DNA from: Candidatus Saccharibacteria bacterium oral taxon 488
GTDB lineage: Bacteria > Patescibacteriota > Saccharimonadia > Saccharimonadales > Saccharimonadaceae
Reading direction: 5' to 3'
NCBI GenBank assembly: GCA_013100805.1
Contig: CP040000.1
Location: forward strand, 372,001 to 436,000
DNA length: 64,000 nt
This document shows positions 2,624-35,615 of this stretch, in pieces. The notes beneath the pieces were generated by a model. That model was not told where the DNA came from, ran no database searches, and saw only the letters and a program-made list of their open reading frames with translations. The position numbers and the translations under genes were made by a program. Position 1 is the stretch's first letter; every line of letters begins with the position of its first letter.

Positions 2624-4585
2624 ATGATAGCCGACATTCACATCACCGAGAAGAGTTTTGGCGACAAGACGTTGATGCGCGACGTCAAGTTTAGCGTGGA
2701 CGACGGCGAGAAAATTGGCGTGGTCGGTCGCAATGGCGTCGGCAAATCGACGCTGTTTGGCATCTTGGCGGGTACGGACACCGACTACACCGGCGAGGTA
2801 ATTTTTCGGCGCGGCATCACGGTGGCCAGTACGGCACAGGAGCATCACGGTTTGGGCGATCAGACGGTGCTGAGCTACATCTTGGCGGGGCTGCCAGAAT
2901 ATGCGAGCTTAAAGAAAATTATCGATGAATATCCTGAAACCATGGGCGATAATATGCGTAAGATTGAGGAGTATACGCAGGCGCTGGAGCGATTTGACCA
3001 GAAAGGCTTTTACCAGATTGAGGAGAAGATCGAGCGGGAGCTCAATAATTTTCAGCTGAGCGGGTGCAGTGAGCGGCCGCTTGGTTCCCTGTCGGGTGGT
3101 CAGAAGCGGCTGGTGGAGATTGTGAAGATTATGCATTCGGGGGCGCATTTGGCGCTGATTGACGAGCCGACCAACCACATGGATTATGTGGCCAAGCAGC
3201 AATTCATTGATTGGATGAGTTCGCAGCCGCGCCAGGCCATGCTGATCATCACGCACGACCGCGATGTGCTGGGCCGGGTGGATCGAATTATTGATCTCAA
3301 AGACGGCCGAGCGGTCAGCTACCGCGGTAATTATGACGCTTACCTCAAGCAGAATGCTCAGGCGACGGCGGCGGGCATGAATAATTTTGAGCAGATTGAG
3401 AAGCGGATGACTAACCTTCGGCAAAAGGTGTTGGATTATCAGCGGCTAAAGGAAAAGTCGCGCAACCCCGGCACCATCCAGAAGTTCAAGCGGCTGGAGA
3501 ATGAGGCGCGGGCCGAGCTAGCGGAATTATCAGAGATGGACAAGCCTACGTTTTGGATTGACAAGCAGTCGGCTGGGCAGCTCGATTATAAGTCAGCTGA
3601 GCGCTACGGTAAGTTCAAGGCGCGCAATATTCGGCTATCGATGAAGGATGCGGTCAGTCGCAGTCAGCATGTGCTGGTGCGAGTTGAGGATGCGGCAGTT
3701 GGGGTTGGCGAGCGGCTATTGTTTGAGGGCGTGAATATTGATCTGCGTGAGGGTGAAGCGGTGGAGCTGCGCGGCCGTAATGGCGCTGGTAAGACGACGC
3801 TGATTCGGATGCTGTTGGCAAGCGGTGATGTGGCTCGCCCGTCTCGCAAACATCTTTTTCCTCAGGCCGGCGCGCCGCTAACTGATTCAGTTGGCGCTCT
3901 TGGCGCACACTCGCCGGAAAGGCAAAGCCTTCGGAAAAAGAGTTTGACGAGCCAGCTTGAATACACTCAGAAGAAATCTGAGACACCGCTCGCGCCAGAT
4001 GCACCAGCAACAGCGACACCTCCTGCGCTGGAGGCTGTGAAACGTTCGCGAGGAGCGGACGTTTCAGCCGAACGCTCGCGTAGTATCTCCAGTAGAGATA
4101 CAAGCGAAAAGAGTACTCCAGCGCAGGAGCGTGGCGCAGTCGTCACCCCTATCCTCTACTCCGGTAATCTCTTCCTTGATCTGCAGGTGCGGGTGGGCGT
4201 GTATGAGCAAGAGATTGATGAGCGGTATTTGGCGGATCCGTTGGAGGCAGCGATTGAGAAGTTGTATCTTAGCCATGACCTGCCGATTTCTGATACGAAA
4301 ATTCGCCAATTACTAGCCGATTATCTGTTCACTGAAGCGGATCGGATGATGCCACTGGCGCGCCTGTCGGGTGGCCAGAAAGCTCGCTTTCAGATCATTG
4401 CTATGCTGGCGAATGACCCGCAGCTGCTGATTTTAGATGAGCCGACCAACCACCTTGACCTGCCGAGCATTGAGGAGTTAGAGACGGCACTGGCGAAATA
4501 TTCTGGCGCTATCCTGTACGTCAGCCACGACAATTATTTCCGTCAAGCAATTGGCGGTGAGGTGGTGCAAATCGGCGCAGCATAA
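2624..4585 (+). CDS. ABC-F family ATPase with a ~100-residue insertion
   Basis: Soluble twin-ATPase ABC-F proteins act on the ribosome (EttA/Uup type translation factors or antibiotic protection). Domain 1 has Walker A GRNGVGKST near residue 35, signature LSGGQKRLVEI and Walker B LALIDEPTNHMD. A charged linker helix pair follows. Domain 2 has Walker A GRNGAGKTT near residue 387, signature LSGGQKARFQ and LLILDEPTNHLD. There are no membrane segments. Between the second Walker A and the Q-loop strand (VRVGVYEQEI) lie about 105 extra residues (roughly 403-507), Pro/Ala/Ser/Arg-rich, encoded by palindrome-rich DNA related to the repeat family described separately. The ATG at 2624 fits the start of domain 1 and lies nine bases after TACAAT; a GTG at 2600 is in frame but less likely. 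The exact ABC-F subgroup is not clear. Confidence 0.9.
   Translation: MIADIHITEKSFGDKTLMRDVKFSVDDGEKIGVVGRNGVGKSTLFGILAGTDTDYTGEVIFRRGITVASTAQEHHGLGDQTVLSYILAGLPEYASLKKIIDEYPETMGDNMRKIEEYTQALERFDQKGFYQIEEKIERELNNFQLSGCSERPLGSLSGGQKRLVEIVKIMHSGAHLALIDEPTNHMDYVAKQQFIDWMSSQPRQAMLIITHDRDVLGRVDRIIDLKDGRAVSYRGNYDAYLKQNAQATAAGMNNFEQIEKRMTNLRQKVLDYQRLKEKSRNPGTIQKFKRLENEARAELAELSEMDKPTFWIDKQSAGQLDYKSAERYGKFKARNIRLSMKDAVSRSQHVLVRVEDAAVGVGERLLFEGVNIDLREGEAVELRGRNGAGKTTLIRMLLASGDVARPSRKHLFPQAGAPLTDSVGALGAHSPERQSLRKKSLTSQLEYTQKKSETPLAPDAPATATPPALEAVKRSRGADVSAERSRSISSRDTSEKSTPAQERGAVVTPILYSGNLFLDLQVRVGVYEQEIDERYLADPLEAAIEKLYLSHDLPISDTKIRQLLADYLFTEADRMMPLARLSGGQKARFQIIAMLANDPQLLILDEPTNHLDLPSIEELETALAKYSGAILYVSHDNYFRQAIGGEVVQIGAA
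3832..4146 (+). repeat. Palindrome-rich insertion inside the ABC-F gene
   Basis: This in-frame stretch has several near-perfect small hairpins: GAAACGTTCGC with GCGGACGTTTC around 4037-4063, and a TATCTC/GAGATA pair around a CAGT loop near 4082-4099, which is followed directly by AAGCGAAAAGAG. The last part recurs inside dus (TCTCCAGTGGAGA followed by AAGCGAAAAG on its coding strand). The encoded peptides share PLAPDAPA and an RSR.ISS.D.SEK pattern. The rest of the ABC-F family needs no residues here. Confidence 0.7.
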
Positions 4586-4598
4586 AGGGTGTACTAAT

Positions 4599-4640
4599 GA
4601 AAAACCTGCTGCCAGTAAGTTCCTAGGCAGCAGGTTTTTT
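4599..4640. terminator. Bidirectional intrinsic terminator
   Basis: An 11-base inverted repeat, AACCTGCTGCC (4603-4613) with GGCAGCAGGTT (4626-4636), is flanked by AAAA on the left and TTTTTT on the right. It can stop transcription from the ABC-F gene and from the convergent glutaredoxin gene. Confidence 0.9.
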
Positions 4641-4658
4641 GGCGTCAATCAGTGATAT

Positions 4659-4946
4659 TTACTCGCTTATCAAACCATTCTTCTTCAGCGCATCCTGAAG
4701 CTTCGGCCGGTCGAATCCCAGGATGACCTCGCCGCAAACATCAGTCACTGGTACGCCCTGGAAATTGCCGCCGTTCTTGCTGAGCAATTCTTCTTTGGCA
4801 CTTGGATCAGCCTCGATGTCCTTGGCGACAAAATCAATGCCGAGTTTTTTCAACCACTCCATCTCGGTGTGGCAGAATGCGCACCAGCTGGTGCTATAGA
4901 CAGTGACTTTAGCGTCTTGGTGATTGGCCGTGTTATCTTCGCTCAT
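4659..4946 (-). CDS. Glutaredoxin-like thiol oxidoreductase
   Basis: A 95-residue thioredoxin-fold protein. After about 14 polar residues comes VTVYSTSWCAFCHTEMEWL, with a CAFC redox pair at residues 22-25, then a cis-proline loop GVPVTD and a glycine pair region (EVILGFD) as in NrdH/Grx-like proteins. Glutaredoxins reduce disulfides or supply electrons to ribonucleotide reductase. The CAFC pair differs from the CPYC of classical glutaredoxin, so it could use a thioredoxin reductase instead of glutathione. A TACAAT box (about 4974-4979), a short leader and a GGAGGG ribosome site precede the ATG. It is a single-gene unit ending at a shared terminator. Confidence 0.85.
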   Translation of the reverse strand: MSEDNTANHQDAKVTVYSTSWCAFCHTEMEWLKKLGIDFVAKDIEADPSAKEELLSKNGGNFQGVPVTDVCGEVILGFDRPKLQDALKKNGLISE

Positions 4947-5009
4947 AACTTCCCTCCTTATGGCTTTTCTCTATTGTAGCATAAGCATCGGTGCCTCGGC
5001 AATGCCACC

Positions 5010-5246
5010 CTAGTCTCGGGACGCCCGACTCGTTAAGTGCCAGCCGTCACACCCTCGACAATAGTACACGTCTAACTCCAGCTTTGGTGACATCAGCTCC
5101 TGCGTATCAGCCGCTCGCCTGGCGATTTGCTCGGTGGCGAAGCGGCGCTTACGCCGGCACGTGTCGCGATCAGTAGTTGTTAACATCGGCTTGACTAATA
5201 CCCGGGCTGATTTTGGTTGATTTTTAGGATAATTTCGGCGTGGCAT
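5010..5246 (-). CDS. Small basic protein with a YYCRGCDGWHLT zinc-knuckle-like end
   Basis: This 78-residue Arg/Lys-rich protein ends with the pattern Y-C-x-x-C-x-x-W-H-L-T. It also has an upstream Cys in DRDTCRRKRRF followed by a helix (ATEQIARRAAD). Small proteins of this layout are common in bacteria and phages and probably bind one metal through Cys/His and contact nucleic acid. The role is unknown. The ATG is nine bases after TATACT, which is the mirror image of the promoter for the ATP synthase operon on the other strand. Confidence 0.7.
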   Translation of the reverse strand: MPRRNYPKNQPKSARVLVKPMLTTTDRDTCRRKRRFATEQIARRAADTQELMSPKLELDVYYCRGCDGWHLTSRASRD

Positions 5247-5255
5247 CTTGTCAAG

Positions 5256-5276
5256 AGTATAGCATGTTGCTATAGT
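5256..5276. promoter_or_regulatory. Symmetric bidirectional promoter of the atp operon and the small basic gene
   Basis: The palindrome TATAGCATGTTGCTATA (5259-5275) contains two opposed -10 boxes: TATAGT (5271-5276) reading right and TATACT (complement of 5256-5261) reading left. Each lies nine bases from the ATG of its gene (5286 and 5246). The spacing implies leaderless or nearly leaderless messages in both directions, and each polymerase footprint would cover the other start. Confidence 0.65.
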
Positions 5277-5285
5277 GACAGAGTA

Positions 5286-5558
5286 ATGGCTGAGAGACCA
5301 GATATTGAGAATGGCGTAACGACAGCGACGGAAGTGGCGGCGGCTCGGGTTATTCTCGGGACGATCGGCGACACAACGTGGCGGATGTTTGTGCCGAGTA
5401 TCGGCTGTACGCTGCTGGGTGTGTGGCTGGATAGTGTGTCTGGTTTGAAGCCGTGGCTGATGTTTACTGGCGTGGTAGTTGGTTTTTTGGGCGCGTATCT
5501 ACTGGTAAATAAGCAGCTGGGGCGTGTGAAACGAAAAAAGGAGCGTAAAAACATATGA
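5286..5558 (+). CDS. atpI: AtpI/AtpZ-like ATP synthase assembly membrane protein
   Basis: A 90-residue protein with a polar N-terminus, two hydrophobic segments (about residues 36-50 and 57-77) and a very basic tail (RVKRKKERK). This is the layout of the small AtpI/AtpZ proteins encoded at the head of many F1Fo operons, which help assemble the c-ring or transport cations. The start was placed at the ATG nine bases after TATAGT rather than further upstream, where the frame crosses the divergent gene. Its stop overlaps the atpB start by four bases (ATGA). Confidence 0.8.
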   Translation: MAERPDIENGVTTATEVAAARVILGTIGDTTWRMFVPSIGCTLLGVWLDSVSGLKPWLMFTGVVVGFLGAYLLVNKQLGRVKRKKERKNI

Positions 5559-6388: not shown

Positions 6389-6420
6389 AAAAGTAAAGTA
6401 TTAAATAAAGGAGAAATTAT

Positions 6421-6633
6421 ATGAAAGAATTAGCATTTGCACTCACCTACGCCATCCCGGCTGCGCTGGCAGCGATCGGCGCTGGTATCGTCGGCGCGGC
6501 AGCGATGAACGCGGCTGGCCGCAACCCAGAGAAAATTAACGATTTACGCACCATGATGATCCTCGGTATTTCGTTCATCGACGCCCTGGCGATTATCGGT
6601 TTCGTGGCGGCTATCGTCGGCAAAGTTATGTAA
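6421..6633 (+). CDS. atpE: F1Fo ATP synthase subunit c
   Basis: This 70-residue hairpin of two membrane helices builds the rotating c-ring. The first helix is Gly/Ala-rich (AAIGAGIVGAAAM), the polar loop carries the invariant R34-N35-P36, and the second helix has the ion-carrying acid Asp54 in SFIDALAIIG. There is no Gln in helix 1 nor a Glu-Ser pair in helix 2, so the Na+-binding pattern is absent and proton coupling is the better guess. An AAAGGAG site precedes the ATG. Confidence 0.97.
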   Translation: MKELAFALTYAIPAALAAIGAGIVGAAAMNAAGRNPEKINDLRTMMILGISFIDALAIIGFVAAIVGKVM

Positions 6634-6648
6634 TTTGAGAGGTAAATT

Positions 6649-7197: not shown

Positions 7198-7199
7198 TC

Positions 7200-7736
7200 A
7201 TGGCGCGGACGCTTCGGCGAAAGTTGGCACGACACGCGGCCGAGCGGCTGCTGGCGGGCGACGCGGCGGTGATTGATGAACTGGCGGCACTGATCGTCCA
7301 CGAGCGGCGCGAGCGAGAGGTTGATCTGTTGGTGCAGGATATTGAGGCGGAATTGGCTGAGCGTGGGACGGTTGTGGCGACGGTGGAGAGTGCGACATCG
7401 CTGGACGAGGCGACAAAGGGTGCAATTAGAAAGCTACTATCGTCTGACTCGGGTATGGAGTCGCTGTCATCTGTGGAGGGTCGCTCTGCAGCCCGAGCGT
7501 CCAGAAAGGACGCCCGGAGCGAAGCCCGCGTACCCGAAACAGATGGTAGCGACCGTGCCACTCAGCATGTCGAACTTCCTGATACGGAAGTCCCGAGCGA
7601 CCGCATCGTTCAGGTGCGCCTGCGCGAAATCATCCGTTCCGAGTTGATCGGCGGGGTGAAGATTACCACGCCGACCCAAGTGATGGACGCGACAATTGCC
7701 AAGAAACTAAACGACTTGCGGGCGAAGAAAATCTAG
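7200..7736 (+). CDS. atpH: F1Fo ATP synthase subunit delta with internal insertion
   Basis: Position between atpF and atpA, three bases after atpF, identifies this as the delta (OSCP) subunit, which ties F1 to the b stalk. The N-terminal part is helical ([15 protein letters not shown]) and the C-terminus ([20 protein letters not shown] ... [12 protein letters not shown]) matches the end of delta proteins. Between them, about residues 80-135 are Ser/Arg/Asp-rich and unlike the family. The DNA of that stretch carries a copy of the palindromic repeat. Without it the protein would be only about 125 residues, shorter than the usual 170-180. Confidence 0.85.
7478..7530 (+). repeat. Palindromic repeat copy inside atpH
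   Basis: The core GCAGCCCGAGCGTCC (7489-7503), a short loop and GGACGCCCGGAGCGAAG (7507-7523) form a hairpin. The same words occur in the helicase gene and between rplJ and rplL. The flanks hold two further inverted pairs (CATCTGT/ACAGATG and GGTCGCT/AGCGACC) arranged in an interlocked rather than a nested order. Confidence 0.75.
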
Positions 7737-7744
7737 GAGGAAAA

Positions 7745-9271
<1,527 letters not shown>

Positions 9272-9274
9272 TCC

Positions 9275-10152: not shown

Positions 10153-10156
<4 letters not shown>
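9275..10156 (+). CDS. atpG: F1 ATP synthase subunit gamma
   Basis: The central rotor shaft, 293 residues. The N-terminal helix (STRALKNRIRSVDSTKQITK, then AMQLVAASKMRRAQ) and the C-terminal helix (SEHSMRMMAMKNATDNASDL) are the two arms of the coiled coil and carry the family signature. The middle is the Rossmann-like domain (IIVIASDKGLAGAYN). It starts three bases after atpA. Its stop overlaps the start of a non-ATP-synthase gene (ATGA), which separates it from atpD. Confidence 0.97.
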
Positions 10157-12073
<1,917 letters not shown>

Positions 12074-12077
12074 CCTG

Positions 12078-13394: not shown

Positions 13395-13396
13395 TA

Positions 13397-14529
<1,133 letters not shown>

Positions 14530-14533
<4 letters not shown>

Positions 14534-16463: not shown

Positions 16464-19400
16464 CTACGCCGCCCCTGTTAACAAATCATTCTCAAACTGC
16501 ACCATCCCCTTATAGTCCGCTGGATACCCAGAAATATCCGGCAGTTCCAGCGTGGTGATTTTCCGCCAGACGACGCCGATGAGCCGGGCGAATTCAGCTA
16601 ATTCCTCCTCGGAGAACGTATCTTCCAAGCTGAGGATGTCGCCAGTTTTCATATCTGGCTCGACGAACTGCAGGCGGGCGCCGGTGAAGGTGAAATTGCC
16701 ATAATCGCGTGATGATGTGACCAAGAGTTGATAGAACATCAGCTGCTGGCGGTATTTGTGGAGCTTGATTTTTTCGTAATCAGACGTGCCCTTCCAGGAG
16801 TGCGATGGCTTGCCGGTCTTGTAATCGGTCACGAATATGGTTTTATTATGCTTATCAATGTCAGCGACGTCCAGCTTACCAGTCAGGCGCGCGCTGCCAA
16901 CGACGACGCCCTGATGAGCGAAATCGAGTTCCGCCAGCTCCGTGTCATGAAAATCGGACGATTTGGCGTCCAGAAACGCCGTCAGCGCCGCCGTGCCCTT
17001 GTCCAAATACAGTTCGAAATCGTCGGGCGGCAGGTGCTGGGTCTCGAGCGATGTGCGGAAATGTTGTAGGATGCGTTCGGCAGGCGGCAGGCGGTGGTCG
17101 GCGCGTAGCAGATTGTGCAGCTGCTGGAGGCTGGCGTGAATGGCGGTACCGTAGCTGGCGGCGGGACTTTTGGCGGACGGAAAGCGCAGCAGATTATTCA
17201 ACAAAAAGTTCTGCGGGCCGCCGCGCGAGATGTCGAGGAAATTATTGAGATGAGTGACGGAAAGTTTGTAGGTTTCTAAGGTCGGCGCCAGTACATCCTT
17301 GAGCTCCGCGGTAATCGGCGCGCTCAGCCGCGCGCTCCAGTCGGTTTGCGCCACGGTAATTTGCGTCGCGGGTGTGTTGGCAGCGGGGATAATCGTCGGT
17401 GTGTGGTCGGTCAGAAAGCTGGCGATCATGGTGTCGCCGCCGGCGTCGTTGGTCTGGGAATAGGTCATGGTCAGGGTGGTTTTGGCGCGGGTCATCGCCA
17501 CGAAGAATAGCCGCAGCCGTTCGTCGTAGCTGGTGCCGGCGGGCTGGAGCTGGAGGTTGGCGGGATAGCGAATCAGCCGCGAGCGCGAGCGGACTTTCTC
17601 GCCCCAAGCGCTGTCGATTGCCCCGATGACGAAGACGTGCGGGAATTCCAGGCCTTTGGATTTGTGGGCGGTCATCAGGTTGATGGCGCCGCCGAGGGCG
17701 CTGGCCTGGGGGCGGATGTGTGTCAGGCGGGTTTTGGTCGAGCGGTGCAGGTCGATGAATTCTAGGAAGTCCGCCAGTGTCGGGGTCGCGTCGGTAGTGC
17801 GGTCGCGTAATTTTTGGCGCAGCGTGCGCAGGCTCTCGAGCGTGGTTAGGTAGGCGTCGGGATTTTGGGCGAGGTTGTCGGGCGAGAAGTAGTGGTCGGC
17901 GAGAGAATTAAGCGAAGAGCCTTTACTAGGACTCCTCTTTTCGCGCCGGGCGTCTGAGGACGCTCGGGCTGCAATCGCTGTACGAAGTTCTGAGGAAAGC
18001 TCCTCGCCGGTTGATTGCAAGAGTTCCCTGCCAGAGTGAGCGCCGGAACTATCCCTATCGAATACTCTTTTCGCGCCGGGCGTCTGAGGGTTCTCAGGCG
18101 ATGTTCGCTGTACGGAGTCGATTGGAGTAATTCCGGCGTCTATCTCCAATCCCAACAACTTGTCCAACTGCTCCTCCAGCGGCAAATTTGGCACGTCCTT
18201 TGCTCGCTCTAGCAGCCACTCACCGAACGGCTGAAAGGTGCTGTTCGCCAACATACTCTCCAGCCACAGCTCTCGATTTTTATAAGCGTGGAGGCTTAAT
18301 CGCCAGATATCCAGCGCCGAAAAGCCGAACGCCGGATGGGCGATTACCTCTGGTAGTAAGCTGTTGGCGACGTCAAGATTATTCTGATGAATCGCCATGA
18401 CGACTCGCGCTAGCTTGTCCAGCGCCTGAATGATGTCCTGCTCTAAAATATCGTCGTGCCGCTCGTAATTAACCGTCAGGCTCTGGCGGTACAGGTATGG
18501 CAGCAGCTCGATCAGCTCCTTGTGATGGCGGGCGATGACGGTGATATGCGCTGGGTCTGCGCCACGTTTGATTAGTTCGGCAATTTGCTGGGCTACCCCT
18601 GCCCGCTCCTCGCTCACTGAGGTAAATTCCTGCACCTCAACCCGCGCGCCGCTACCAGACGCATGCGCGGTCAATTGCTTTGACAAGCCGTCAATGGTGT
18701 TCTCCAGGCGATCTGTTCCTTGGGTGATCACCCCCCGCGCCGCCGTTAAGATGTCGGCCACCGAGCGGTAATTGTCCGTCAGCACGATGATTTTCGGGTC
18801 GTGGTATTGCTGGCGGAAGCGCTGAATATTGCCAACGTCCGCGCCCTGAAAACTGAAAATTGCCTGGTCGTCGTCGCCGACCGCCATGATGTTGGGATTG
18901 TCCTCATCGCCAGTCAGGTCGAACAGTAGCCGCAGCTGCGCCAGGTTGGTGTCTTGAAATTCGTCGACCATGATGAATTGAAATTGCTCCTGGAGGTTGG
19001 CGCGCAGTTCCGGGTGGGCTTCGCAGGCTTGAATGATTGACAAAATCATGTCGTCGTAGTCAAACAGCGAGCGCTCGGCCAGCACGTTGCCGTATGCTTC
19101 GTAGACATCAATGGCGGCAGATAATTTCTCGCTGGCGGCAAAATCTTTCAGGACGAACTCGCCAGCGGCGTTCTTTTCGCACCACTTGTTTTTCCAGGCG
19201 GTTAGCGGTTTGGTGGAGTTGGCGTCGATGGCCTCTTGGGCCGCGTGAGCGATGCTGAGCGCCAGAACCTGAGCGTACGGGGTGATGGAGGATGGTAGCG
19301 CAGCGGACGGTTTGATATGGTGCGGCGCTGAGCTGGCGGCATTTTCAGAAAGCTCTGTAGCGCCTTCCTTGCTAGTTTTCGCAGCATTTTCCTCGCCGAT

Positions 19401-20033
19401 TCTCTCGGCAATCTTCTCTGCCAGCGGCGCAAATAATTCAATGGTTTTTTTAGAAATTTTGGTCGCAAATACCTGCTGAATGTCGGAGGCAATGTCAGCG
19501 ATGACGCGCTGATTATCTGCCATCACCAGCCGCAGTTCCGCCGGCGTGAGGCCGCTCTGCTTGAACTCGGAAATGACCCGGATTAACTCGCTGGCGTAGA
19601 CGAACTCGCCGTTGTTTTTAACGCTCAGCGGATTACGCCAGTCAAGCCCCTCGAGGATCCCCGTGACGATTTGGTGCTGCGTCAGCTCATCCGCCGGCTG
19701 GGCGTCAGCGCCGCGAAAAAAATACTGGCGGTGCTGATTGATAATCTCCGTGCCAAAGCTATGAAAGGTGTGAATGGCGATTTTATAGGCATCCTCGCCG
19801 ATAATCTGGCGCAGGCGTTGGCGCATGTTGGCAGCGCCGCTCTCGGTAAATGTCAGGCACAAAATACTATCCGGCAGCGTGTCGGTCTGGCGCAAAATCT
19901 GGGCGGTGCGCATGCTCAGTAGCTCGGTCTTGCCCGTGCCCGGCCCGGCGATCACCAGGAGCGAGCCGTGAATATAATCGACCGCTTGGCGCTGATTGGC
20001 GTTCAGTGTGGCGTAGCGAGTGTGAAAATCCAT
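16464..20033 (-). CDS. UvrD/Rep-family helicase fused to a PD-(D/E)XK nuclease
   Basis: A 1189-residue superfamily 1A helicase. Motifs: QRQAVDYIHGSLLVIAGPGTGKT (Q motif and Walker A, residues 13-36, split here as QRQAVDYIHG and GPGTGKT), VDEFQDTN (motif II, about 354), GDDDQAIFSFQGA (III), TDNYRS (IV), TAHKSKGLEFPHVFV (V) and FVAMTRAKTTL (VI). The last 250 residues form a RecB/AddB-like nuclease with VTDYKTGKPS as the catalytic D-x-K. Such fusions process DNA ends or unwind during repair; here it may replace RecBCD/AddAB. Two stretches, near residues 215-250 and especially 640-705, are low-complexity insertions; the second is encoded by two copies of the palindromic repeat. The ATG is six bases after TACAAT, so probably leaderless. 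Confidence 0.93.
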   Translation of the reverse strand: MDFHTRYATLNANQRQAVDYIHGSLLVIAGPGTGKTELLSMRTAQILRQTDTLPDSILCLTFTESGAANMRQRLRQIIGEDAYKIAIHTFHSFGTEIINQHRQYFFRGADAQPADELTQHQIVTGILEGLDWRNPLSVKNNGEFVYASELIRVISEFKQSGLTPAELRLVMADNQRVIADIASDIQQVFATKISKKTIELFAPLAEKIAERIGEENAAKTSKEGATELSENAASSAPHHIKPSAALPSSITPYAQVLALSIAHAAQEAIDANSTKPLTAWKNKWCEKNAAGEFVLKDFAASEKLSAAIDVYEAYGNVLAERSLFDYDDMILSIIQACEAHPELRANLQEQFQFIMVDEFQDTNLAQLRLLFDLTGDEDNPNIMAVGDDDQAIFSFQGADVGNIQRFRQQYHDPKIIVLTDNYRSVADILTAARGVITQGTDRLENTIDGLSKQLTAHASGSGARVEVQEFTSVSEERAGVAQQIAELIKRGADPAHITVIARHHKELIELLPYLYRQSLTVNYERHDDILEQDIIQALDKLARVVMAIHQNNLDVANSLLPEVIAHPAFGFSALDIWRLSLHAYKNRELWLESMLANSTFQPFGEWLLERAKDVPNLPLEEQLDKLLGLEIDAGITPIDSVQRTSPENPQTPGAKRVFDRDSSGAHSGRELLQSTGEELSSELRTAIAARASSDARREKRSPSKGSSLNSLADHYFSPDNLAQNPDAYLTTLESLRTLRQKLRDRTTDATPTLADFLEFIDLHRSTKTRLTHIRPQASALGGAINLMTAHKSKGLEFPHVFVIGAIDSAWGEKVRSRSRLIRYPANLQLQPAGTSYDERLRLFFVAMTRAKTTLTMTYSQTNDAGGDTMIASFLTDHTPTIIPAANTPATQITVAQTDWSARLSAPITAELKDVLAPTLETYKLSVTHLNNFLDISRGGPQNFLLNNLLRFPSAKSPAASYGTAIHASLQQLHNLLRADHRLPPAERILQHFRTSLETQHLPPDDFELYLDKGTAALTAFLDAKSSDFHDTELAELDFAHQGVVVGSARLTGKLDVADIDKHNKTIFVTDYKTGKPSHSWKGTSDYEKIKLHKYRQQLMFYQLLVTSSRDYGNFTFTGARLQFVEPDMKTGDILSLEDTFSEEELAEFARLIGVVWRKITTLELPDISGYPADYKGMVQFENDLLTGAA
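17935..17987 (-). repeat. Palindromic repeat copy 1 in the helicase gene
   Basis: On the + strand it begins CTCTTTTCGCGCCGGGCGTC, then TGAG, then GACGCTCGGGCTGCAATCGC and ends TGTACGAAG. Apart from the loop and a few bases this is the element found between rplJ and rplL. It is read in frame as part of an ARASSDARREKR-type peptide. Confidence 0.85.
18064..18119 (-). repeat. Palindromic repeat copy 2 in the helicase gene
   Basis: The + strand begins ACTCTTTTCGCGCCGGGCG, identical to copy 1 for the first 21 bases after the leading A, continues with a different loop (CTCAGGCGATG) and ends TTCGCTGTACGGAGTC. It lies about 75 bases from copy 1 in the same gene. Confidence 0.8.
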
Positions 20034-20088: not shown

Positions 20089-20565
20089 ATGCACGATGAA
20101 CGGGCGCTCGCGGCGCTGATTGATGATCAGTTTGGACTGACGGTCAAAATCCAGTCGGTCGTGCTGCCGATGAGCGATGTCAGCCGCACGGCGCAGGCGA
20201 CGGTGGTGCTTGATAGGACGGGTGGATTGCTGGTTTACATCACGGCGCGGGCTATCATGACGCTGGGTGATGTCAAGCGGTTGGTGCGGCGAATGGGCCT
20301 GCGGCCAGAGCGGTTCGTGCCGCCAAAGCACCAGCCGAACTACTTTGACGACGTGGCGACCGAGAAGTTTCAGGCGGTTTTTCCGGGGATGAATGTGACT
20401 TCGCCGGATGACTTGATATATTATCGAACGCTGGTGCCGTATAATCCAGCCCTGGTCGTCATATCGGAGGTCAAGCGTGGCGAAATATACCAATTTGACC
20501 CGGACGCCCGCGGCGGCTATCGTGTCGGCGCGCGATTACATTACAAAAGGAGCGAGGCAATATAA
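20089..20565 (+). CDS. Unknown 158-residue protein upstream of the P-type ATPase
   Basis: I do not recognise the family. It is soluble, with an alternating alpha/beta character (LAALIDDQFGLTVKIQSVVL; GGLLVYITARAIMTLGDVKR) and a conserved-looking RFVPPKHQPNYFDDVA segment. There is no membrane helix. The ATG at 20089 is seven bases after TAAAAT; the earlier in-frame ATG at 20080 overlaps that box. It ends on the start codon of the P-type ATPase (TAATG), so the two are co-expressed and this could be a regulatory or accessory partner, but that is inference. Confidence 0.6.
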   Translation: MHDERALAALIDDQFGLTVKIQSVVLPMSDVSRTAQATVVLDRTGGLLVYITARAIMTLGDVKRLVRRMGLRPERFVPPKHQPNYFDDVATEKFQAVFPGMNVTSPDDLIYYRTLVPYNPALVVISEVKRGEIYQFDPDARGGYRVGARLHYKRSEAI

Positions 20566-23012
20566 TGCGAGATTATCTGGATATTATCAAGAGAAATTTA
20601 CTGTCGCCGATTGTGCTGGCGATTTTCCTGCTGGCCGGGGCGCTGATTTATGTGCGCGAGTACCGGGACGCTTGGTTTATTTCAGTGGTGATCGTGGTCA
20701 ATTCGCTGATCGGCATCGTTCAGGAAATTCGTGCCAAGCGGGTGCTGCACCGGCTGGAGCTGATGAGTGCGCCCAGGGCGCGGGTGCTGCGTGATGGCCA
20801 GGCGGTGGAGGTGCCGTATGATTCGCTGGTGGTGGGTGATGAGATTATCCTTAGGGCTGGTGATGAGCTGCCGGCGGACGCGGCAGTGACAGCGTCGAAG
20901 GGCCTGGAGCTGAATGAAAGTATGCTCACTGGCGAGTCGGCGGCGGTCGAGAAAGCGGTTGGCGACACGGTGCTGGCGGCAACTACGGTGCTGGCGGGCG
21001 AAGGTGCGGCGCGGGTCACGGCGGTCGGCGACCAGACGAAAGCCGGCGCTATCAGCCAAGTCCTCAAGCGCTACAAACCGGAATTGACACCGCTGCAGGT
21101 GGCGATTTGGCGGGCGATCACTTTCTTGACATACGGCGCGATTGTGTTGGCGACATTGATTTTTATAGTGTATTATTTCTCGGGCGATGATGTGGTGATT
21201 ATCTTAAAGACCATTACTTCGGCGGCGGTAACGGTGGTGCCGGAGGGGTTGCTGCTGGCCAGTTCCCTGCTGCTGGCGTTCGGCTCGCTGCGGCTGGCGC
21301 AGGCCAAGGTGTTGCCGCAGAAATTAGCGGCGATCGAGGCAATGGCCCTGCTGAATTTACTAGCGGTGGACAAGACTGGCACGCTGACCAGCGACGAGGT
21401 GACACTGGAGCGGGTGGTGGCGTTTGATGAGATGATACTGGCAAATTCGATCACGGATACCTCGGAAAAATCCGCAGCCCAAGCGGCCGCGGGCAGCCCA
21501 GAGCGTAGATTTTCGGAGATAAAACTATCTGAAGCTGCTTCGGACGTTGCCGAGCTGGCCGCCCTCATCGCCCATGAAACCAGCGGCGGCAATATCACCG
21601 GGCAAGCGATCCTAGCGGAAATCACGCCGCCCAAGCACGCAGATATCATCGAGGTGATGGCCTTTTCCTCGGCGCGCAAGATGGCGGGCGTCCGGGCGAA
21701 GATTGACGGGAAAACCAGGACATTGATGATGGGGGCGCCGGAGTTTGTGGCCAAGCTAGCGCCGGTTGACGCCATGCTCCAGCGCCAGCTGGACGAGTGG
21801 GCAGACAGCGGCCTACGGGTGCTGATGCTGGCGGAATTTGATGATGAAACGGCGAAGCTCAAGGATCTGCCAGACGGCTCTGGCCGGGCGATTGGCGCGG
21901 TGATCTTGCGTAATTCCCTGCGCGACGGCGTGATTGATACAGTCAAGTTCCTCCAGGAGCAAGGCGTGGTTATTCGCGTGATTTCTGGCGATAATCCGCG
22001 CACCGTTCAGCACATTGCGCGCCAGGCGGGCATCAACAATCCGGACAAGGCGATTCTCGGCTCGGCGCTAGCAGGTCTCAGCGATAAGGCCTTCGACAAG
22101 GCCGCTGATGAACACACGATTTTTGCCCGCGTGCTACCGGAGCAGAAGGAGCGGCTGATCGCTCATTTCAAGCAGTCCGGTAAGTTCACCGGCATGGTCG
22201 GCGACGGCGTTAACGATGCGCTGGCGCTGAAAAAATCTGACCTCGGTGTGGCGATGTACGCCGGTGCTCCGGCGTCGCGGCGGGTGGCGGACATAATTTT
22301 ACTCAACAATTCGTTCACATCCCTGCCGATCGGTATGAAGCTGGGCAATCGGATCATGCAAGCGATCGAAGTGATAGCCACCCTGTTCTTTCACAAGATT
22401 ATTTACGGCGTGGTGCTGCTACTCAGTACCATGCTGGTCGGGCTGAATTATCCGTACGCGCCGCGGCACATCACGTTTCTCAATATTTTCCTGGTGACCA
22501 TGCCGACGATCATGTGGACGCTGTTTCCGCCACGGCCGCGCCACCGGGTCAATCCGGCGCATTTCTGGCGCGACACCTTGCGGGCGGTGGCGCCAATTGC
22601 GCTGCTGACGGGCCTGACGGTGGCCTTTACCTATTGGTCGGGCGTGACGCTGCATCCAAATCAGGCGGCCGAGGCAGCGACGATGACGGTCCTCACAGCT
22701 ACGTTCTTCGGGGTTTATCTGGTGTTTTTGGTCGGTCCGATGCTCGGTGTGGTCCTGGATAAGCGGGCGCATCTGGCGCGGACGCTATATATGGCGGGTG
22801 TGCTGTTCGTCACTCTGGTGAGCTTTGGTATTGAGCCGCTCAGGCAGTTCTTTGACTTTACTATGCCAAATGTCACCCTGCTCTGGCCGGGCATCGCTGT
22901 AGTCGTTCCCGTCGCCTTGGCCCAGTGGTGGCTGGCTCGCCGCGCTGGTCGGAAGTTTGCTGATATGGTAGAGGTGGCTGATAAGCAGACTCAGACGAAC
23001 CACCCAGAATGA
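20565..23012 (+). CDS. P-type cation-transporting ATPase
   Basis: An 815-residue ion pump. The actuator domain has LTGES; the phosphorylation site is DKTGTLTSD near residue 269; the hinge is MVGDGVNDALALKKSDLGVAM. The core membrane helix reads VTVVPEGLLLASSLLL, a PEGL site as in P2-type (Ca2+, Mg2+ or Na+/K+-like) pumps rather than the CPC of heavy-metal pumps. Ten hydrophobic helices are suggested (2+2+6). The ion is not decided. Just after the phosphorylation site, residues about 298-330 (ITDTSEKSAAQAAAGSPERR) are a Ser/Ala-rich insertion encoded by a palindromic element. Its start overlaps the previous gene by one base. Confidence 0.92.
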   Translation: MRDYLDIIKRNLLSPIVLAIFLLAGALIYVREYRDAWFISVVIVVNSLIGIVQEIRAKRVLHRLELMSAPRARVLRDGQAVEVPYDSLVVGDEIILRAGDELPADAAVTASKGLELNESMLTGESAAVEKAVGDTVLAATTVLAGEGAARVTAVGDQTKAGAISQVLKRYKPELTPLQVAIWRAITFLTYGAIVLATLIFIVYYFSGDDVVIILKTITSAAVTVVPEGLLLASSLLLAFGSLRLAQAKVLPQKLAAIEAMALLNLLAVDKTGTLTSDEVTLERVVAFDEMILANSITDTSEKSAAQAAAGSPERRFSEIKLSEAASDVAELAALIAHETSGGNITGQAILAEITPPKHADIIEVMAFSSARKMAGVRAKIDGKTRTLMMGAPEFVAKLAPVDAMLQRQLDEWADSGLRVLMLAEFDDETAKLKDLPDGSGRAIGAVILRNSLRDGVIDTVKFLQEQGVVIRVISGDNPRTVQHIARQAGINNPDKAILGSALAGLSDKAFDKAADEHTIFARVLPEQKERLIAHFKQSGKFTGMVGDGVNDALALKKSDLGVAMYAGAPASRRVADIILLNNSFTSLPIGMKLGNRIMQAIEVIATLFFHKIIYGVVLLLSTMLVGLNYPYAPRHITFLNIFLVTMPTIMWTLFPPRPRHRVNPAHFWRDTLRAVAPIALLTGLTVAFTYWSGVTLHPNQAAEAATMTVLTATFFGVYLVFLVGPMLGVVLDKRAHLARTLYMAGVLFVTLVSFGIEPLRQFFDFTMPNVTLLWPGIAVVVPVALAQWWLARRAGRKFADMVEVADKQTQTNHPE
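21458..21528 (+). repeat. Divergent palindromic repeat in the P-type ATPase gene
   Basis: Outer arms CTCGGAAAAATC (about 21461) and GATTTTCGGAG (about 21515) are inverted. The middle contains GCAGCCCAAGCG, one base away from the GCAGCCCGAGCG of the atpH, helicase and rplJ-rplL copies. It is read in frame and encodes a DTSEKS peptide, also present in the ABC-F insertion. Confidence 0.6.
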
Positions 23013-27969: not shown

Positions 27970-28006
27970 GGTTGTATTGTAGCAAAAGCAGGAGGGCCTT
28001 AGCAAG

Positions 28007-28914: not shown

Positions 28915-28954
28915 AATTATTAATTCCTCCTTGAATTTACTTTTTCATTATACG

Positions 28955-30415: not shown

Positions 30416-30437
30416 TGGTATTGATTATAGCACAATT

Positions 30438-31796: not shown

Positions 31797-33325
31797 GATA
31801 ATTCCTCCAGATTAACTTCTTCACCGCCGCCCATTAGCTCGGCAATTTCCGCGAGTTTGGCGTCTTTGGGCGGAGCTTTTTGTCCGATTGTCGCAATATC
31901 CAGTTCGGTGCCGGCAACTTGTTGCACAATTGTCGCAATAAGCGGGCGATTCTTCGCGTCGTCCAGCTTCTTTTTAGCAAAGGCATTGCCGGCATACAGG
32001 GTTAAGGTGTTGCCATCTCGCCGCCAACCGCACTGTTGCAACAATGTCGCAACAGCGAATGACTGCTCTTTAGCTAGAGCGATAATCTTATCCCAGTCGA
32101 TGTCTGTAGCGGAGCTTATCGGATTGTCTGATGCCGGCTGATTGTCTGCTGGGGTAGCGGTGTCTGTGGTTGTCTTGTCTGTAGAGTTATTAGTTTGCTG
32201 AGTTTTCAAAGCGGTCTTTGATGAATTTTCTGCCGGCTGCGCGGCTGGTGTTTCTGTATCAGATGCCGGCGGCTCCGCCTTATCCGCTGGCGATTTGGAA
32301 ATGGCTACTGGCGGCTTGACTGCAGCAGTCGGGCTCGCGGTCGACGTGGGTGCGACCTCGGGTGATTTATGAGCTATACCTCCAGCTCCATCCATAAATA
32401 TCGTCAATAATTTCAAATCCGGATGCGGATGGCGGTCAACTTCGATTAGCTGCTTGACCAATGTAATTAACTCTGGCCGCTGATGTAAGCGCGCTCGCAG
32501 CAGTGATAATAATTGACGGGACAGGACGACCGGATCGGTGCCAGTTTGCTCTAGTTCACTCAGCAAGCTCAGCGCCTCAGGCGCGTCACGCTGCTGATAC
32601 AGCTCAAGCAGGTTCTCCAGCGTCTCCGTGGTGCTTAGCCCCAGGTACTGGGCAACGTCCGATGCGCTCAGCGGCTTATCAGCGCTGGCTAACGCCGACA
32701 ATTGATCCAGCATGCTGATACCGTCGCGAAACCCGCCGCGTGAACGCTCAGCGATCAGCCGAGCGGCGTCCGCCTCGATGGCAAAGCCTTCTTTTTCGGC
32801 GATAGCCATCAGCTGGCGTGCCATGACATCGACTGAGATGGGATGAAAGAAAAATTGCTGGACGCGGCTGAGGATGGTAGCTGGCAACTTATCGGCGTCG
32901 GTGGTTGCCAAGATAAATACCACATGTGCTGGCGGCTCCTCCAACGTCTTTAATAGTGCGTTGAAGGCAGGCTTGGACAGCATGTGGACTTCGTCGATGA
33001 TGTAGATCTTTTTCGGTGCGGAAACGGGTGCGACTTGCGCTTTTTCGCGCAGGGCGCGGATGTCGTCGACACCGTTATTGCTGGCGGCATCAATTTCGAT
33101 GATGTCCAGGTGTGAGGCTTCCTCGTCGTACGGCAACTGATTGATCTCATGCGCCAAAATTCGTGCTACGCTGGTTTTCCCCACGCCGCGCGGACCCGTC
33201 AGCAAATATGCATGGGCGATTCTCCCCTGCTCCAACGCTCGGCGCAAAATGTTGGTCACGTGATCTTGCCCCAACACCTCGTCCAAGCTGCGACTGCGAT
33301 ATTTGCGGTACAGTGCCTGACTCAT
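31793..33325 (-). CDS. dnaX: DNA polymerase III subunit gamma/tau, no zinc module
   Basis: ATPase of the clamp loader, 510 residues. Walker A GPRGVGKTS, DEVHMLSKPAFNALLKTLEE (II), SRC-like SRVQQF and sensor motifs are present. The zinc module that normally follows the first helix is missing: between LAHEINQLPYDEEASH and LDIIEIDAASN there is no Cys. A Pro/Ala/Ser/Thr-rich linker (about residues 325-415) leads to a tau-like C-terminal domain. No frameshift site producing gamma was evident. A TATAAT box lies nine bases before the ATG. Confidence 0.96.
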   Translation of the reverse strand: MSQALYRKYRSRSLDEVLGQDHVTNILRRALEQGRIAHAYLLTGPRGVGKTSVARILAHEINQLPYDEEASHLDIIEIDAASNNGVDDIRALREKAQVAPVSAPKKIYIIDEVHMLSKPAFNALLKTLEEPPAHVVFILATTDADKLPATILSRVQQFFFHPISVDVMARQLMAIAEKEGFAIEADAARLIAERSRGGFRDGISMLDQLSALASADKPLSASDVAQYLGLSTTETLENLLELYQQRDAPEALSLLSELEQTGTDPVVLSRQLLSLLRARLHQRPELITLVKQLIEVDRHPHPDLKLLTIFMDGAGGIAHKSPEVAPTSTASPTAAVKPPVAISKSPADKAEPPASDTETPAAQPAENSSKTALKTQQTNNSTDKTTTDTATPADNQPASDNPISSATDIDWDKIIALAKEQSFAVATLLQQCGWRRDGNTLTLYAGNAFAKKKLDDAKNRPLIATIVQQVAGTELDIATIGQKAPPKDAKLAEIAELMGGGEEVNLEELS

Positions 33326-33405
33326 TACTTATGTATTATAGCGCAAAGTGCGGGATTAGTAAGCTGTTTGGTGGTTGATTTGGAGACGACCCGCCGCGAA
33401 CACAC

Positions 33406-34278
33406 TCAAAACAGCGCCAGCTGTGTGCTGGGTATTGCGATGTCAATGGCGCCGTCAACTGCCTGCGCTTGGTAGCCGATGAATTTTTTCACGTTGTATG
33501 CCAGTAGCTGCCCGTCATAGTCGGTGATGAGGATCGGGCCGATGATGCTGACGACTGTGCCGGCCATGGTATTGTTCCCTGTCATGTCAATCACACTACT
33601 AAGGTCGCGGCCATCCGTGTGAAAATAATCTTCGCACATGATGAGCGTCCGATGTGGAAAATCCAGCCCCAGCTTTTGCTGAATGCGCATCAGCGTGTTA
33701 GCTAGGGCCTGCTCCGCCGCCACAGCATCAAGCGTCCGCCTGATCAGCCCCGGCTTTTTGCTGGCGGCTACTGTTTCCATGATGCCACTTAGACTGGCAA
33801 CTTTTGCCTCATACTGCCGAGCAATCAAGGCCGAAGAAAACGTCTCCAGTTTCAACGCCAGCCGTGCTCCCTGTTCCAACAGTCGTCGAATACCGCGCTT
33901 TTCCTGCGAGATACCAACTTTAATAACTCCCGGCGCGAAATATGCCAGATAGACGAAGTGCGGGTTTTGATTAATCTTTTCTTGCTGCGCCGACACCGAA
34001 TCAGCGTGATAAAATGCTGGATTAAAACCAGTGCGATTGCGGCACTTCAGGCAATTCTCATATTTCTCATCAACTGTGGCGCCGTCAGGACAAGCCTGGC
34101 TGCAGTGATTGTCAAAATCCACCCAGCCCGTGCAGTATTTAGCAGAAAAATCAAACGCCAGTGACAACTCCTGCCCCAAAACATCACCACGCTCAGTCTT
34201 GCCGTCAACCTGCCACTCCAGAAATGGCCGGTTTTCGGTATCAAAGCTGGCGTAGCTTAGCAAAAACTCCCCAGACAT
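33406..34278 (-). CDS. DUF2797-family protein
   Basis: A 290-residue protein of a poorly known family. It has a cysteine cluster likely to bind zinc (YCTGWVDFDNHCSQACP, then NCLKCRN) followed by FVYLAYFAPGVIKVGISQ and RLLEQGARLAL, the GIY-YIG-like core shared by DUF2797 proteins. The function is unknown. The ATG is six bases after TATAAT. It is one of few proteins in the window that keeps a Cys metal site. Confidence 0.8.
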   Translation of the reverse strand: MSGEFLLSYASFDTENRPFLEWQVDGKTERGDVLGQELSLAFDFSAKYCTGWVDFDNHCSQACPDGATVDEKYENCLKCRNRTGFNPAFYHADSVSAQQEKINQNPHFVYLAYFAPGVIKVGISQEKRGIRRLLEQGARLALKLETFSSALIARQYEAKVASLSGIMETVAASKKPGLIRRTLDAVAAEQALANTLMRIQQKLGLDFPHRTLIMCEDYFHTDGRDLSSVIDMTGNNTMAGTVVSIIGPILITDYDGQLLAYNVKKFIGYQAQAVDGAIDIAIPSTQLALF

Positions 34279-34342
34279 AGCACCATTATATCAAAAGCCG
34301 CCTGGGTAACCACCCGGGACGGCCTCAAATGTCAAAAACGGT

Positions 34343-34858
34343 CTATAGCGGCGCTTCGACAGCTGCCCAGGTGGCGTCCGGATTGTCATCAGGGATGATG
34401 ATGGTAACTTGGTCGCCGACTTCGATGCGGAAGAACGTGACGCTGGCGAGCAGGATGCGGTATTCGCGGCCGTTGGCTTCGACGTAGTAGACGCCGTCGT
34501 GTTGGACGAGGGTACCGATGACTTGTTTGCGCGAGACCGGGCCGATTTGCTTGTAGATAAAACTGCCGTCCTCGGCGATGGTTAATTTCAAGATGTCGCC
34601 CTCGACGAGCTTGGACTTCGAGGCGTAGTTCGCCGGGATTGGATAATTCTTGCCATCAGGCCCCATCATCATCTGGCCGTCAAACACACCCTCGATCACC
34701 TTGCCAGCGACATCGTCCGACGAGGTTTTTGGCGTAACGACTTGCCCATCGTCACCAACGATGCTGATCAGCAGCTCCTTGGCCGCCGCTAAGTTGGTTT
34801 CTGCTTCTTGGATGAGCGTCCTGAGGCGCTTCACTTGCTTTTCCGGTAAATCAGACAT
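34343..34858 (-). CDS. Unknown protein with N-terminal coiled coil and beta domain
   Basis: The 171-residue protein starts with a helix (EKQVKRLRTLIQEAETNLAA), then a linker, then two or three beta-rich repeats (GKVIEGVFDGQMMMGPDGKN; RKQVIGTLVQHDGVYYVEAN) that look like an OB or SH3-like barrel. It is acidic and soluble. I cannot name a family; the shape suggests a nucleic-acid or ribosome-associated protein, and it lies next to rplL, but this is inference. A TATATT box precedes it, with a leader of about 40 bases. Confidence 0.6.
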   Translation of the reverse strand: MSDLPEKQVKRLRTLIQEAETNLAAAKELLISIVGDDGQVVTPKTSSDDVAGKVIEGVFDGQMMMGPDGKNYPIPANYASKSKLVEGDILKLTIAEDGSFIYKQIGPVSRKQVIGTLVQHDGVYYVEANGREYRILLASVTFFRIEVGDQVTIIIPDDNPDATWAAVEAPL

Positions 34859-35020
34859 ATGGCTCGCATTCCTTGTCTATTTTGATAGTACGTGAGAGTA
34901 ATATAGCACTAATTATGTGAGTGTGCAAGTCCCGCCAGTCGATTCGCATCGGCTAACGGCTCGTCTTTCCACAAGGACAACAGATAGCCAGGTAAAAATG
35001 TGGTAATTTTTACCCTTGCC

Positions 35021-35060
35021 AATAAAACACCGCCCGTGGTATAAGCTCCGGGCGGCATTT
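35021..35060 (-). terminator. rplJ-rplL terminator
   Basis: On the complement: CCGCCCG (35049-35055), a loop, CGGGCGG (35030-35036), then TGTTTTATT. A second hairpin GGTAAAAAT/ATTTTTACC lies at 34991-35014. Confidence 0.8.
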
Positions 35061-35094
35061 CTCTACGAAAACAATCGGTCGTTTCACGCAAAAA

Positions 35095-35472
35095 TTAGCT
35101 TAACTCAACGCTAGCGCCTGCGTCCTCGAGCGTCTTCTTGGCAGCTTCAGCTTCGTCCTTTGACACCTTTTCCTTGACTGGTGCTGGTGCGCCGTCGACG
35201 ATGGCCTTTGACTCACCGAGACCCAAGCCGGTGATTTCCTTGACTGCCTTGATGACAGCAACTTTTTGAGCGCCCGCGTCTTTCAGAGTGACGGTGAACT
35301 CAGTTTTCTCGTCTTCTGCGGCAGTCTCGCCACCAGCAGCCGGACCAGCAACAGCCACTGCAGCAGCAGCTGGCTCGATGCCGTACTCATCTTTCAGATG
35401 ATTTTTCAATTCGTTAACTTCTAGAACTGTCAACTTGGTCAGTTCTTCAGCCAATTTTTTAATATCAGCCAT
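35095..35472 (-). CDS. rplL: 50S ribosomal protein L7/L12
   Basis: The 125-residue stalk protein that recruits translation GTPases. The N-terminal dimer helices, the Ala/Pro/Gly-rich hinge ([14 protein letters not shown]) and the globular C-terminal domain ([35 protein letters not shown]) are all present. It is separated from rplJ by 155 bases that fold into a very long hairpin. Confidence 0.98.
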
Positions 35473-35498
35473 AGTATTCTCCTTAGATTATGATTATT

Positions 35499-35615
35499 AT
35501 CATCTCGAGTCATCCAATCTTCAACGTCTCCTCTTTTCGCGCCGGGCGCCTTTAGGGGCGCTCGGGCTGCAATCGCTACACGGAGACTTATGAAGATCAA
35601 ATGACTCGAGATGAT
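35499..35615 (-). repeat. Giant hairpin carrying a palindromic repeat between rplJ and rplL
   Basis: Nested arms: a perfect 15-base stem (35499-35513 with 35601-35615), a 7-base stem ATCTTCA/TGAAGAT (35517-35523 with 35591-35597), a 6-base stem GTCTCC/GGAGAC (35526-35531 with 35582-35587), and at the tip CCGGGCGCC-TTTA-GGGGCGCTCGG. The tip region 35531-35586 is a copy of the element in the helicase gene. It lies in the transcribed spacer. Confidence 0.9.

Follow-up and report, generated by a model that had tools for sequence, protein, structure and literature searches.

Palindromic inserts in conserved genes of Saccharibacteria: a family of small elements similar in habit to the Rickettsia palindromic elements, with an apparently target-derived outer arm

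According to the title of a 2002 report by Ogata, protein-coding palindromes are said to be a unique but recurrent feature of Rickettsia; counterparts in Wolbachia were reportedly added later, and to our knowledge no mechanism has been described for the movement of these Rickettsia palindromic elements (RPEs). In the portions of the literature that deal with them, RPEs are presented as small palindromic elements of several families that lie between genes as well as in frame in unrelated conserved genes and form long stem-loops (PMC10969869; PMC2229807); the section on RPEs in one of these sources reports a 12-bp terminal repeat and gives the target duplication as unknown (PMC2229807). Here we analyze a 64,000-nt stretch of Candidatus Saccharibacteria bacterium oral taxon 488 (contig CP040000.1 of assembly GCA_013100805.1, positions 372,001 to 436,000; hereafter, the window), in which atpH, dus, a helicase gene and several other loci contain palindromic inserts that almost certainly represent a mobile family of the RPE kind. 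Like RPEs, these inserts are palindromic with a long stem-loop, occur in frame in unrelated conserved genes while being absent from orthologues, and have copies between genes as well. Unlike RPEs, they belong to another phylum, their arms are mostly copy-specific, with one arm often seeming target-derived, and copies appear inverted in place; the likeness drawn here concerns described habits.

Several other classes of small repeats are relevant for comparison. Bacterial miniature inverted-repeat transposable elements (MITEs), such as ERIC, RUP and Correia/NEMIS, are described in the pertinent sections of two sources as short, non-autonomous elements with inverted ends, some of which make in-frame fusions (PMC10969869; PMC2229807), and most of them are stated there to have a terminal TA and a direct target duplication (PMC2229807). 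The elements described here are likewise short and non-autonomous, with inverted ends; however, the type denoted L below shows neither a direct target duplication nor conserved terminal repeats. Repetitive extragenic palindromic (REP) sequences and BIMEs are linked to RAYT transposases. The part of the literature that concerns REP sequences depicts them as small palindromic repeats with many copies and calls them extragenic (PMC3733652), unlike the present elements, 16 of 18 of which, in a first set of copies, lie in long open frames (albeit only 4 of 18 in a conserved gene in a second set), and the Y1 (RAYT) transposase is found in one of 12 genomes. PARCEL, in the account available in its source, is a palindromic type of coding DNA that presumably spreads from gene to gene, and it consists of tandem 25-residue amphipathic repeats in open reading frames (ORFs) without assigned function (PMC2996958), in contrast to the single, non-tandem inserts in housekeeping genes described here. 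In the titles and abstract openings covered, with most subscription journals and preprints outside this scope, nothing similar was found on repeats or palindromes of Saccharibacteria, Nanosynbacter or Patescibacteria, and the sole match for inverted target duplication in bacterial palindromic repeats concerned primates. We therefore appear to be dealing with an RPE-like system in an unrelated phylum, the unexpected feature of which is an apparently target-derived arm.

The genome of the relative G002 (one contig, 701,908 bp) is collinear with the window in blocks from 181 to 61479, with gaps. A reading of the window made from its letters alone (hereafter, the sequence-only reading) had listed seven places with palindromic DNA, and all seven are longer in the window than in G002, six in frame within genes and one in the rplJ–rplL gap. 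The extra DNA is located in an ABC-F gene, atpH, dus, the helicase gene, a P-type ATPase gene and the rplJ–rplL gap (Table 1, which also defines elements A to D); at dus, the difference is reduced to ~60 nt by an insert that G002 itself carries. The shared words named in that reading have the correct coordinates, but its closing word is not present in the atpH copy, which reads GCGAAGCCC, and the word at 21473 is, on its own, at chance level. Specifically, perfect matches to TGCAGCCCGAGCG are located at 7487, 17961 and 35559, and a match with two mismatches at 21473, which on its own means little because, with up to three mismatches allowed, there are 43 matches in the window against 31 in shuffles. 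Exact copies of GCCCGGCGCGAAAAGAG start at 17935, 18065 and 35531 (three matches against 0.44 expected), whereas AGCGAAAAGAG is exact at 4103 and has one mismatch at 13662, 17935, 18065 and 35531 (five matches against 1.13 expected).

The relationship between the loci is clear at the DNA level. Elements B and C are 84% identical over 58 nt (E 4e-10 or 2e-10, depending on the direction), B and D are 80% identical over 59 nt (E 4e-9), and the ABC-F and dus inserts have modules of 43 nt (86%) and 46 nt (80%) in common. When six window inserts were used as queries, 12 matches at E<=1e-3 were obtained in relatives, compared to one with the reversed sequence, which disposes of the concern that the copies might align no better than shuffled palindromes; across loci and species, the similarity reaches E 1e-16. 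The possibility, raised in the sequence-only reading, that all relatives have the same residues without DNA similarity between loci is refuted by orthologues that are empty at several loci and by the likeness of the loci as DNA.

Three related types of elements can be distinguished: S (short), L (with a three-way junction) and T. A strict pattern combining B and C, both of type S, had one match among 84,980 species genomes, locus L001 of the Saccharibacteria metagenome-assembled genome G001, which is the orthologous helicase linker, with the element oriented opposite to the gene; AGCGAAAAGAG is absent from G001, and no convincing S copy was detected in G002 (best E 0.11). Two candidate markers of the family were discarded: GCGAAAAGAG alone, present in 17 of 21 relatives with 45 matches against 40 for the reversed control word, and the S hairpin pattern with up to three mismatches, which matches 56 of the 294 genomes drawn from the order, as a reversed control word also matches many; a few of its matches have two mismatches and the rest three, the exact ones (two) being confined to G001.

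L elements were identified in the DnaX gene and the RNase HII–YraN gene of G001, in TopA of G003, in the methyltransferase and Fpg genes of G005, at two G005 places without a long frame (L6, L7) and, as shorter matches, in two G009 genes; T copies are found in Dus and DnaX of G001, DnaX of G009, and Dus and the methyltransferase of G003. The two G001 L copies are identical over 144 nt, and the L element of the window ABC-F gene matches two G001 places over 118 nt at 76–78%. The same site can harbor different elements depending on the species, namely, dus (window, G001, G002, G003) and the methyltransferase gene (G003, G005, G297). In the first set, which comprises 18 copies in relatives, including those related to the P-type and atpH inserts, the 16 copies within a frame have it open throughout, and the remaining two are in none. 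The covariance model R2, made for L, has matches in 10 of 100 relatives (E<=0.1), and the model search that the sequence-only reading had suggested extends to 15 of the 294 genomes of the order (E<=0.001), with up to 11 copies per genome; the L model also assigns the G002 dus insert (37.3 bits) and the G001 tsaD insert (32.7 bits) to this type. Another model, R1, of six S and T copies, was not used for the results. In G141, G216 and G310 (loci L270–L289), the C-terminal end of a conserved protein adjoins the L copy in 10 of 20 cases, suggesting that such copies may favor or resemble 3'-end hairpins. The RNase HII and YraN-type domains of G001 are encoded in one ORF (L189:1117-2283, minus strand); the G009 and G002 ORFs also span the junction, and only that of G001 contains the L element.

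Comparison of orthologues reveals both empty and filled sites. The ABC-F insert of the window is missing in all four orthologues, the TopA insert of G003 in all four others, and the window helicase inserts in five of six, the sixth (G001) having one inverted copy; the P-type element is absent in G002, G006 and G004, and at both the dus and the P-type sites, some relatives have an insert and others do not. Insert A of atpH is missing in G009, G003 and G004, with short different residues in G002 and a related insert in G001. For the helicase, the window protein and 120 listed homologues (the best 120 of 7404), 89–93% identical, were classified at the protein level by regular expressions: D and B occur together in 57, D alone in 22 and B alone in 10, one protein lacks both, and five were unparsed; furthermore, B is inverted without D in nine, D is inverted next to a partly inverted-like B in 15, and D is inverted without B in two. 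Protein P0317 is assigned by the expression to the class with inverted D and absent B, despite a peptide similar to those of the partly inverted class. The reverse-strand translation of window copy B, LLFSRRASEDARAAIAVRSSEESSSP, matches 25 of 26 residues of LLFTRRASEDARAAIAVRSSEESSSP in homologue P0316. The Dus site is a mosaic: among the best 120 of 7999 proteins, the window's own included, with 30 unparsed and in no class, five are core-less (RRAVELSSVEEAEDRL) and two inverted, in each case between similar flanks, and four are filled according to the expression, along with near variants. For the P-type site, DNA comparison shows that an arm from G003 or G009 pairs more strongly with an arm of the other genome (21.5 and 22.5) than with its own partner (14.0), suggesting that one element is the other inverted in place together with its arms. 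The proposal of a mobile, protein-tolerated, RPE-like family is thus borne out by several lines of evidence: the inserts are in frame, orthologues can be empty, unrelated loci are alike as DNA, the elements occur in either orientation, and such closely similar proteins differ in whether they contain them.

Seven L copies fold into a three-way junction; at 17 of its 40 pairs, both partners are substituted in one or more copies. In an alignment of 27 distinct L copies, 88.6% of the cells pair, compared to 66.8% after shuffling, and 252 cells are changed on both sides, compared to 77.6, with none of 500 shuffles reaching either value; controls with a slid structure yield 35–43% paired and 46–78 doubly changed cells. 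Because this alignment was fitted to the model, the statistics lean towards structure. We infer that covariation of this strength within protein genes is unlike what peptide constraint would give. A palindromic unit with a long stem-loop is found in the family, the window P-type copy alone being the exception, with weak arms of its own (score 7.0) and folding no better than shuffles (z -0.33). The C unit with its outer arms folds at z -11.1. No Rfam family was detected at the elements when the whole window was searched at the gathering thresholds, and a 301-nt G001 stretch searched at E up to 5 gave two weak unrelated matches. Known ribozymes, in the absence of an Rfam match, and intrinsic terminators, given that no T run is apparent by eye, were set aside.

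Most L copies are centred in an inverted repeat of their own. In 29 L copies (nine from G297, 11 from G141, eight of nine from G216 and one from G310), the score for pairing between the two arms of one copy averages 19.8 (minimum 8.0; pairing over at least 25 nt in 24 copies), as opposed to a mean of 5.4 (95th percentile 7.0, maximum 20.5) in 238 comparisons of a 5' arm with the 3' arm of another copy from the same genome. Between copies, the cores are 76% identical, and the arms beyond the innermost 12 nt are 38% identical, against 35% for shuffled arms. No direct repeat was detected around the L arms (3.45 against 3.44 in the control; at least 5 nt in 3 of 29 copies against 12% of the controls). 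In G297 (L253, L256), two pairs of adjacent L copies in opposite orientation, 19 and 8 nt apart, have arm words in common by eye, which, for the copies 8 nt apart, is as expected if the second insertion copied the arm of the first. Copies L273 and L274 of G141 have the left arm in common and not the right one, which looks like exchange between copies.

To what extent one arm is native to the site was assessed by modelling the site before insertion in three ways, with the right arm retained, with the left arm retained or with neither, and by scoring each version against orthologues for 19 filled loci, four of which represent one P-type site; the methyltransferase of G003 was dropped as its anchor was not found. 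The right arm, in the orientation of the gene, fits as native in six of the 19 loci, corresponding to five sites, and the left arm is clearly favored in none. The respective scores (right/left/both removed) are 338/315/326.5 for dus of G002 and 399/377.5/374.5 and 491/478.5/475 for yraN and the helicase of G001, all three against G009; 267.5/259.5/249.5 and 286/276.5/272 for the P-type ATPases of G001 and G003 (the same site) against G002; and 194/188/181.5 for tlyA of G297 against G001. By eye, the dus sequence of G002, GAGTATAGCTCAACT, can be compared with GAGGATAGCTCAACT of G009, and in the tlyA-family gene of G297, comparison with G016 shows the native left and right parts meeting without the left arm and the core, although the right-arm and left-arm scores are nearly equal there (261 and 260.5). 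Taken together, the outer arms were probably made from the target, and their resemblance to inverted neighbouring DNA hints at an unusual route of spreading.

We propose, with a probability of roughly 0.6, that the inserts belong to a superfamily of small (~60–145 bp) palindromic selfish elements of Saccharibacteria that are moved, as we infer, by fold-back copying. Under this scenario, a growing DNA end would acquire the conserved structured core, whose edges form a short inverted repeat that would allow the nascent strand to fold onto itself; the polymerase would then synthesize an inverted copy of 20–35 nt of adjacent host sequence and afterwards resume on the original template. The outcome would be a core with an inverted copy of one flank, that is, site-specific arms, no direct target duplication and either orientation. 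Later, the core between the arms could flip or be lost, and whole units could also be copied with their arms, as in the 144-nt pair of G001; in-place flips and alleles without a core are compatible with a palindrome that readily undergoes strand switching. Among intragenic copies, those that preserve the frame and encode a hydrophilic linker would survive. That the folding back is carried out by a host polymerase, not a dedicated enzyme, is a proposal with slightly less than even chances. More tentative is the full version, a transposition-like spread free of any enzyme of its own, in which host replication or repair would fold the growing strand and thereby produce the outer arm by copying the target in inverted orientation, copies would flip or leave in place, and housekeeping genes would be a tolerated habitat. 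Among Y1 transposases, reverse transcriptases and IS110, the sole families searched, no mobiliser common to the carriers was found: Y1 is present in one of 12 genomes (G005, four matches), reverse transcriptase in two of 12, with no match in G141, G216, G297 or G001, and IS110 in one of 12; genomes with many copies lacked matches, G297 for Y1 and IS110, and G141 and G216 for IS110 only.

Several observations weigh against fold-back copying of the target, or limit it. Even within the six favorable loci, weaker orthologues are less supportive, with scores of 261/260.5/248 for tlyA against G016 and, against G004, 74/76/77 for the helicase of G001, 187.5/184.5/188.5 for dus of G002 and 153/153/155 for the P-type ATPase of G003; for the helicase arm, the G009 sequence corresponds to the outer end only. 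Removal of both arms fits best for dus of G001 and G003, topA of G003 and the window P-type ATPase with all orthologues, for fpg of G005 with both, and for the methyltransferase of G005 with two of three, the third being a tie. For mnmA and the methyltransferase of G297, keeping one arm mostly beats keeping none, with the side unsettled; tsaD, the P-type ATPase of G009, and the helicase, ABC-F and atpH genes of the window give ties or results that depend on the orthologue. In 14 of 119 arm pairs, similarity lies above the 95th percentile of the shuffled arms, indicating that some copies share arms; arm pairing is weak in two of the 29 L copies (8.0 and 10.0) and covers fewer than 25 nt in five. 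Arms are able to travel with the element, judging from the 144-nt pair, they are alike in L copies of G001 and G003, and those of type T look shared between copies. The core-less arms of the five Dus proteins imply that palindromes could have come first, the P-type inversion appears to blur which arm is native, and the apparent inversions in the helicase and dus come from proteins alone. In AtpH, the insert is not polymorphic near the window, the 120 listed homologues (the best 120 of 744, window included) all having 175–179 aa, approximately the length of the filled form. In the second set (G297, G331, G008, G027, G323, G016, G001), the four copies in a conserved gene are those of mnmA, tlyA, the methyltransferase and tsaD, so intragenic life is not the rule in every lineage: intragenic copies are common near the window, and elsewhere in the lineages examined, extragenic copies prevail. 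Finally, there may be a different mobiliser, and parts of the genomes may be missing.

Among the alternatives, a MITE- or REP-like family moved in trans by a transposase, with quickly diverged terminal repeats, would account for the terminal inverted repeats, the small size and the lack of an encoded protein, as well as for the movement of whole units with arms in G001 and the Y1 matches of G005. We nevertheless consider it somewhat unlikely, given that the direct target duplication is not seen in the 29 L copies, that arms are little alike between copies with similar cores, and that Y1 and IS110 are each limited to one of 12 genomes, with no match in the many-copy genomes tested. Alternatively, the core might enter the loop of pre-existing hairpins, such as terminators or palindromic linkers, so that the arms would be older than the insertion. 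The core-less Dus proteins, the L copies adjoining C-terminal ends in G141, G216 and G310, and a small hairpin-like stretch discerned by eye between rplJ and rplL of G002 are compatible with this view, which still appears unlikely because there are sites with a counterpart for one arm only, in G009 (dus, yraN, the outer end in the helicase) and G016 (tlyA).

The three-way junction, the strong covariation and the conserved single-stranded letters could also be taken to indicate an RNA-mediated element, a structured RNA turned back into DNA by a reverse transcriptase. However, covariation suits single-stranded DNA equally, the elements examined match no Rfam family and, given the distribution of reverse transcriptases described above, this route is improbable. 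That the inserts are ordinary variable low-complexity linkers, with no mobile DNA involved, is scarcely tenable: some linkers do vary without repeats (19296-19406 in the window helicase; DnaX of the window and G002), but the DNA identity of unrelated genes and species, the identical 144-nt copies, the compensatory pairing, the presence or absence of inserts and their inversion all contradict this explanation.

Fold-back copying remains our preferred interpretation, and its mechanism is testable by strain comparison, as there are close homologues that differ by presence, absence and inversion of the element. The inverted target duplication suggested by the arms would, if true, be a new signature for small mobile DNA. 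Furthermore, the family shows one way in which the housekeeping enzymes of small-genome bacteria acquire peptide linkers.

Table 1. Palindromic elements of the window and their host genes
Feature	Coordinates	Strand	Evidence and remarks
Host: EttA-like ABC-F ATPase, two adjacent inserts	2171..4585	+	ribo_prot_ABC_F (NCBIfam) 319 bits, below cut-off 380; Pfam ABC_tran; start may be later than 2171
First palindromic insert in ABC-F gene	3834..3975	+	folds at -53.5 kcal/mol, long arms; within stretch missing from G002; no R2 match
L-type element, three-way junction, in ABC-F gene	4014..4141	+	R2 103.7 bits, E 4e-27 (this copy was among those used to train the model)
Host: atpH, F1 ATP synthase delta subunit	7200..7736	+	PF00213 on homologues
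S-type element A in atpH, 16-residue reading	7479..7537	+	DNA similarity to B and C
Host: dus, tRNA-dihydrouridine synthase, insertion hot spot	13397..14533	-	PF01207; extra segment 26-113 aa among parsed homologues
Mosaic insert in dus: partial L (13661-13703) and 43-nt block common with ABC-F 3977-4019	13658..13744	-	R2 26.7 bits, model positions 57-99
Host: UvrD-family helicase, two S elements in one linker	16464..20033	-	homologue comparison
S-type element B, read as LRTAIAARASSDARREKRS	17930..17988	-	87% over 69 nt to G001 (orthologous gene, opposite orientation)
S-type element D, other reading frame, gives SPENPQTPGAKR	18060..18118	-	DNA similarity to B
Host: P-type ATPase	20565..23012	+	PF00122, TIGR01494
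Divergent palindromic element in P-type ATPase	21458..21528	+	orthologous site: 73% over 59 nt to G001, 71% over 69 nt to G009
S-type element C between rplJ and rplL	35528..35586	-	similarity to B; absent in G002, G001, G009
Outer inverted-repeat arm of C	35499..35523	.	25 nt, 88% complementary to 35591-35615
Outer inverted-repeat arm of C	35591..35615	.	pairs with 35499-35523

Two further segments that are longer in the window than in G002 were left out of the family as not palindromic enough. The segment at 19296-19406 is a second helicase linker, ~69 nt longer than in G002 and highly variable among homologues, without a clear repeat; that at 61157-61299 adds ~129 nt to the gene at 60489-61670 (minus strand) and is AT-rich by eye and weakly folded. 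Upstream of rplJ, at 36245-36382 on the minus strand, the window contains a Ribosomal protein L10 leader (RF00557), with 47.8 bits against a threshold of 44.

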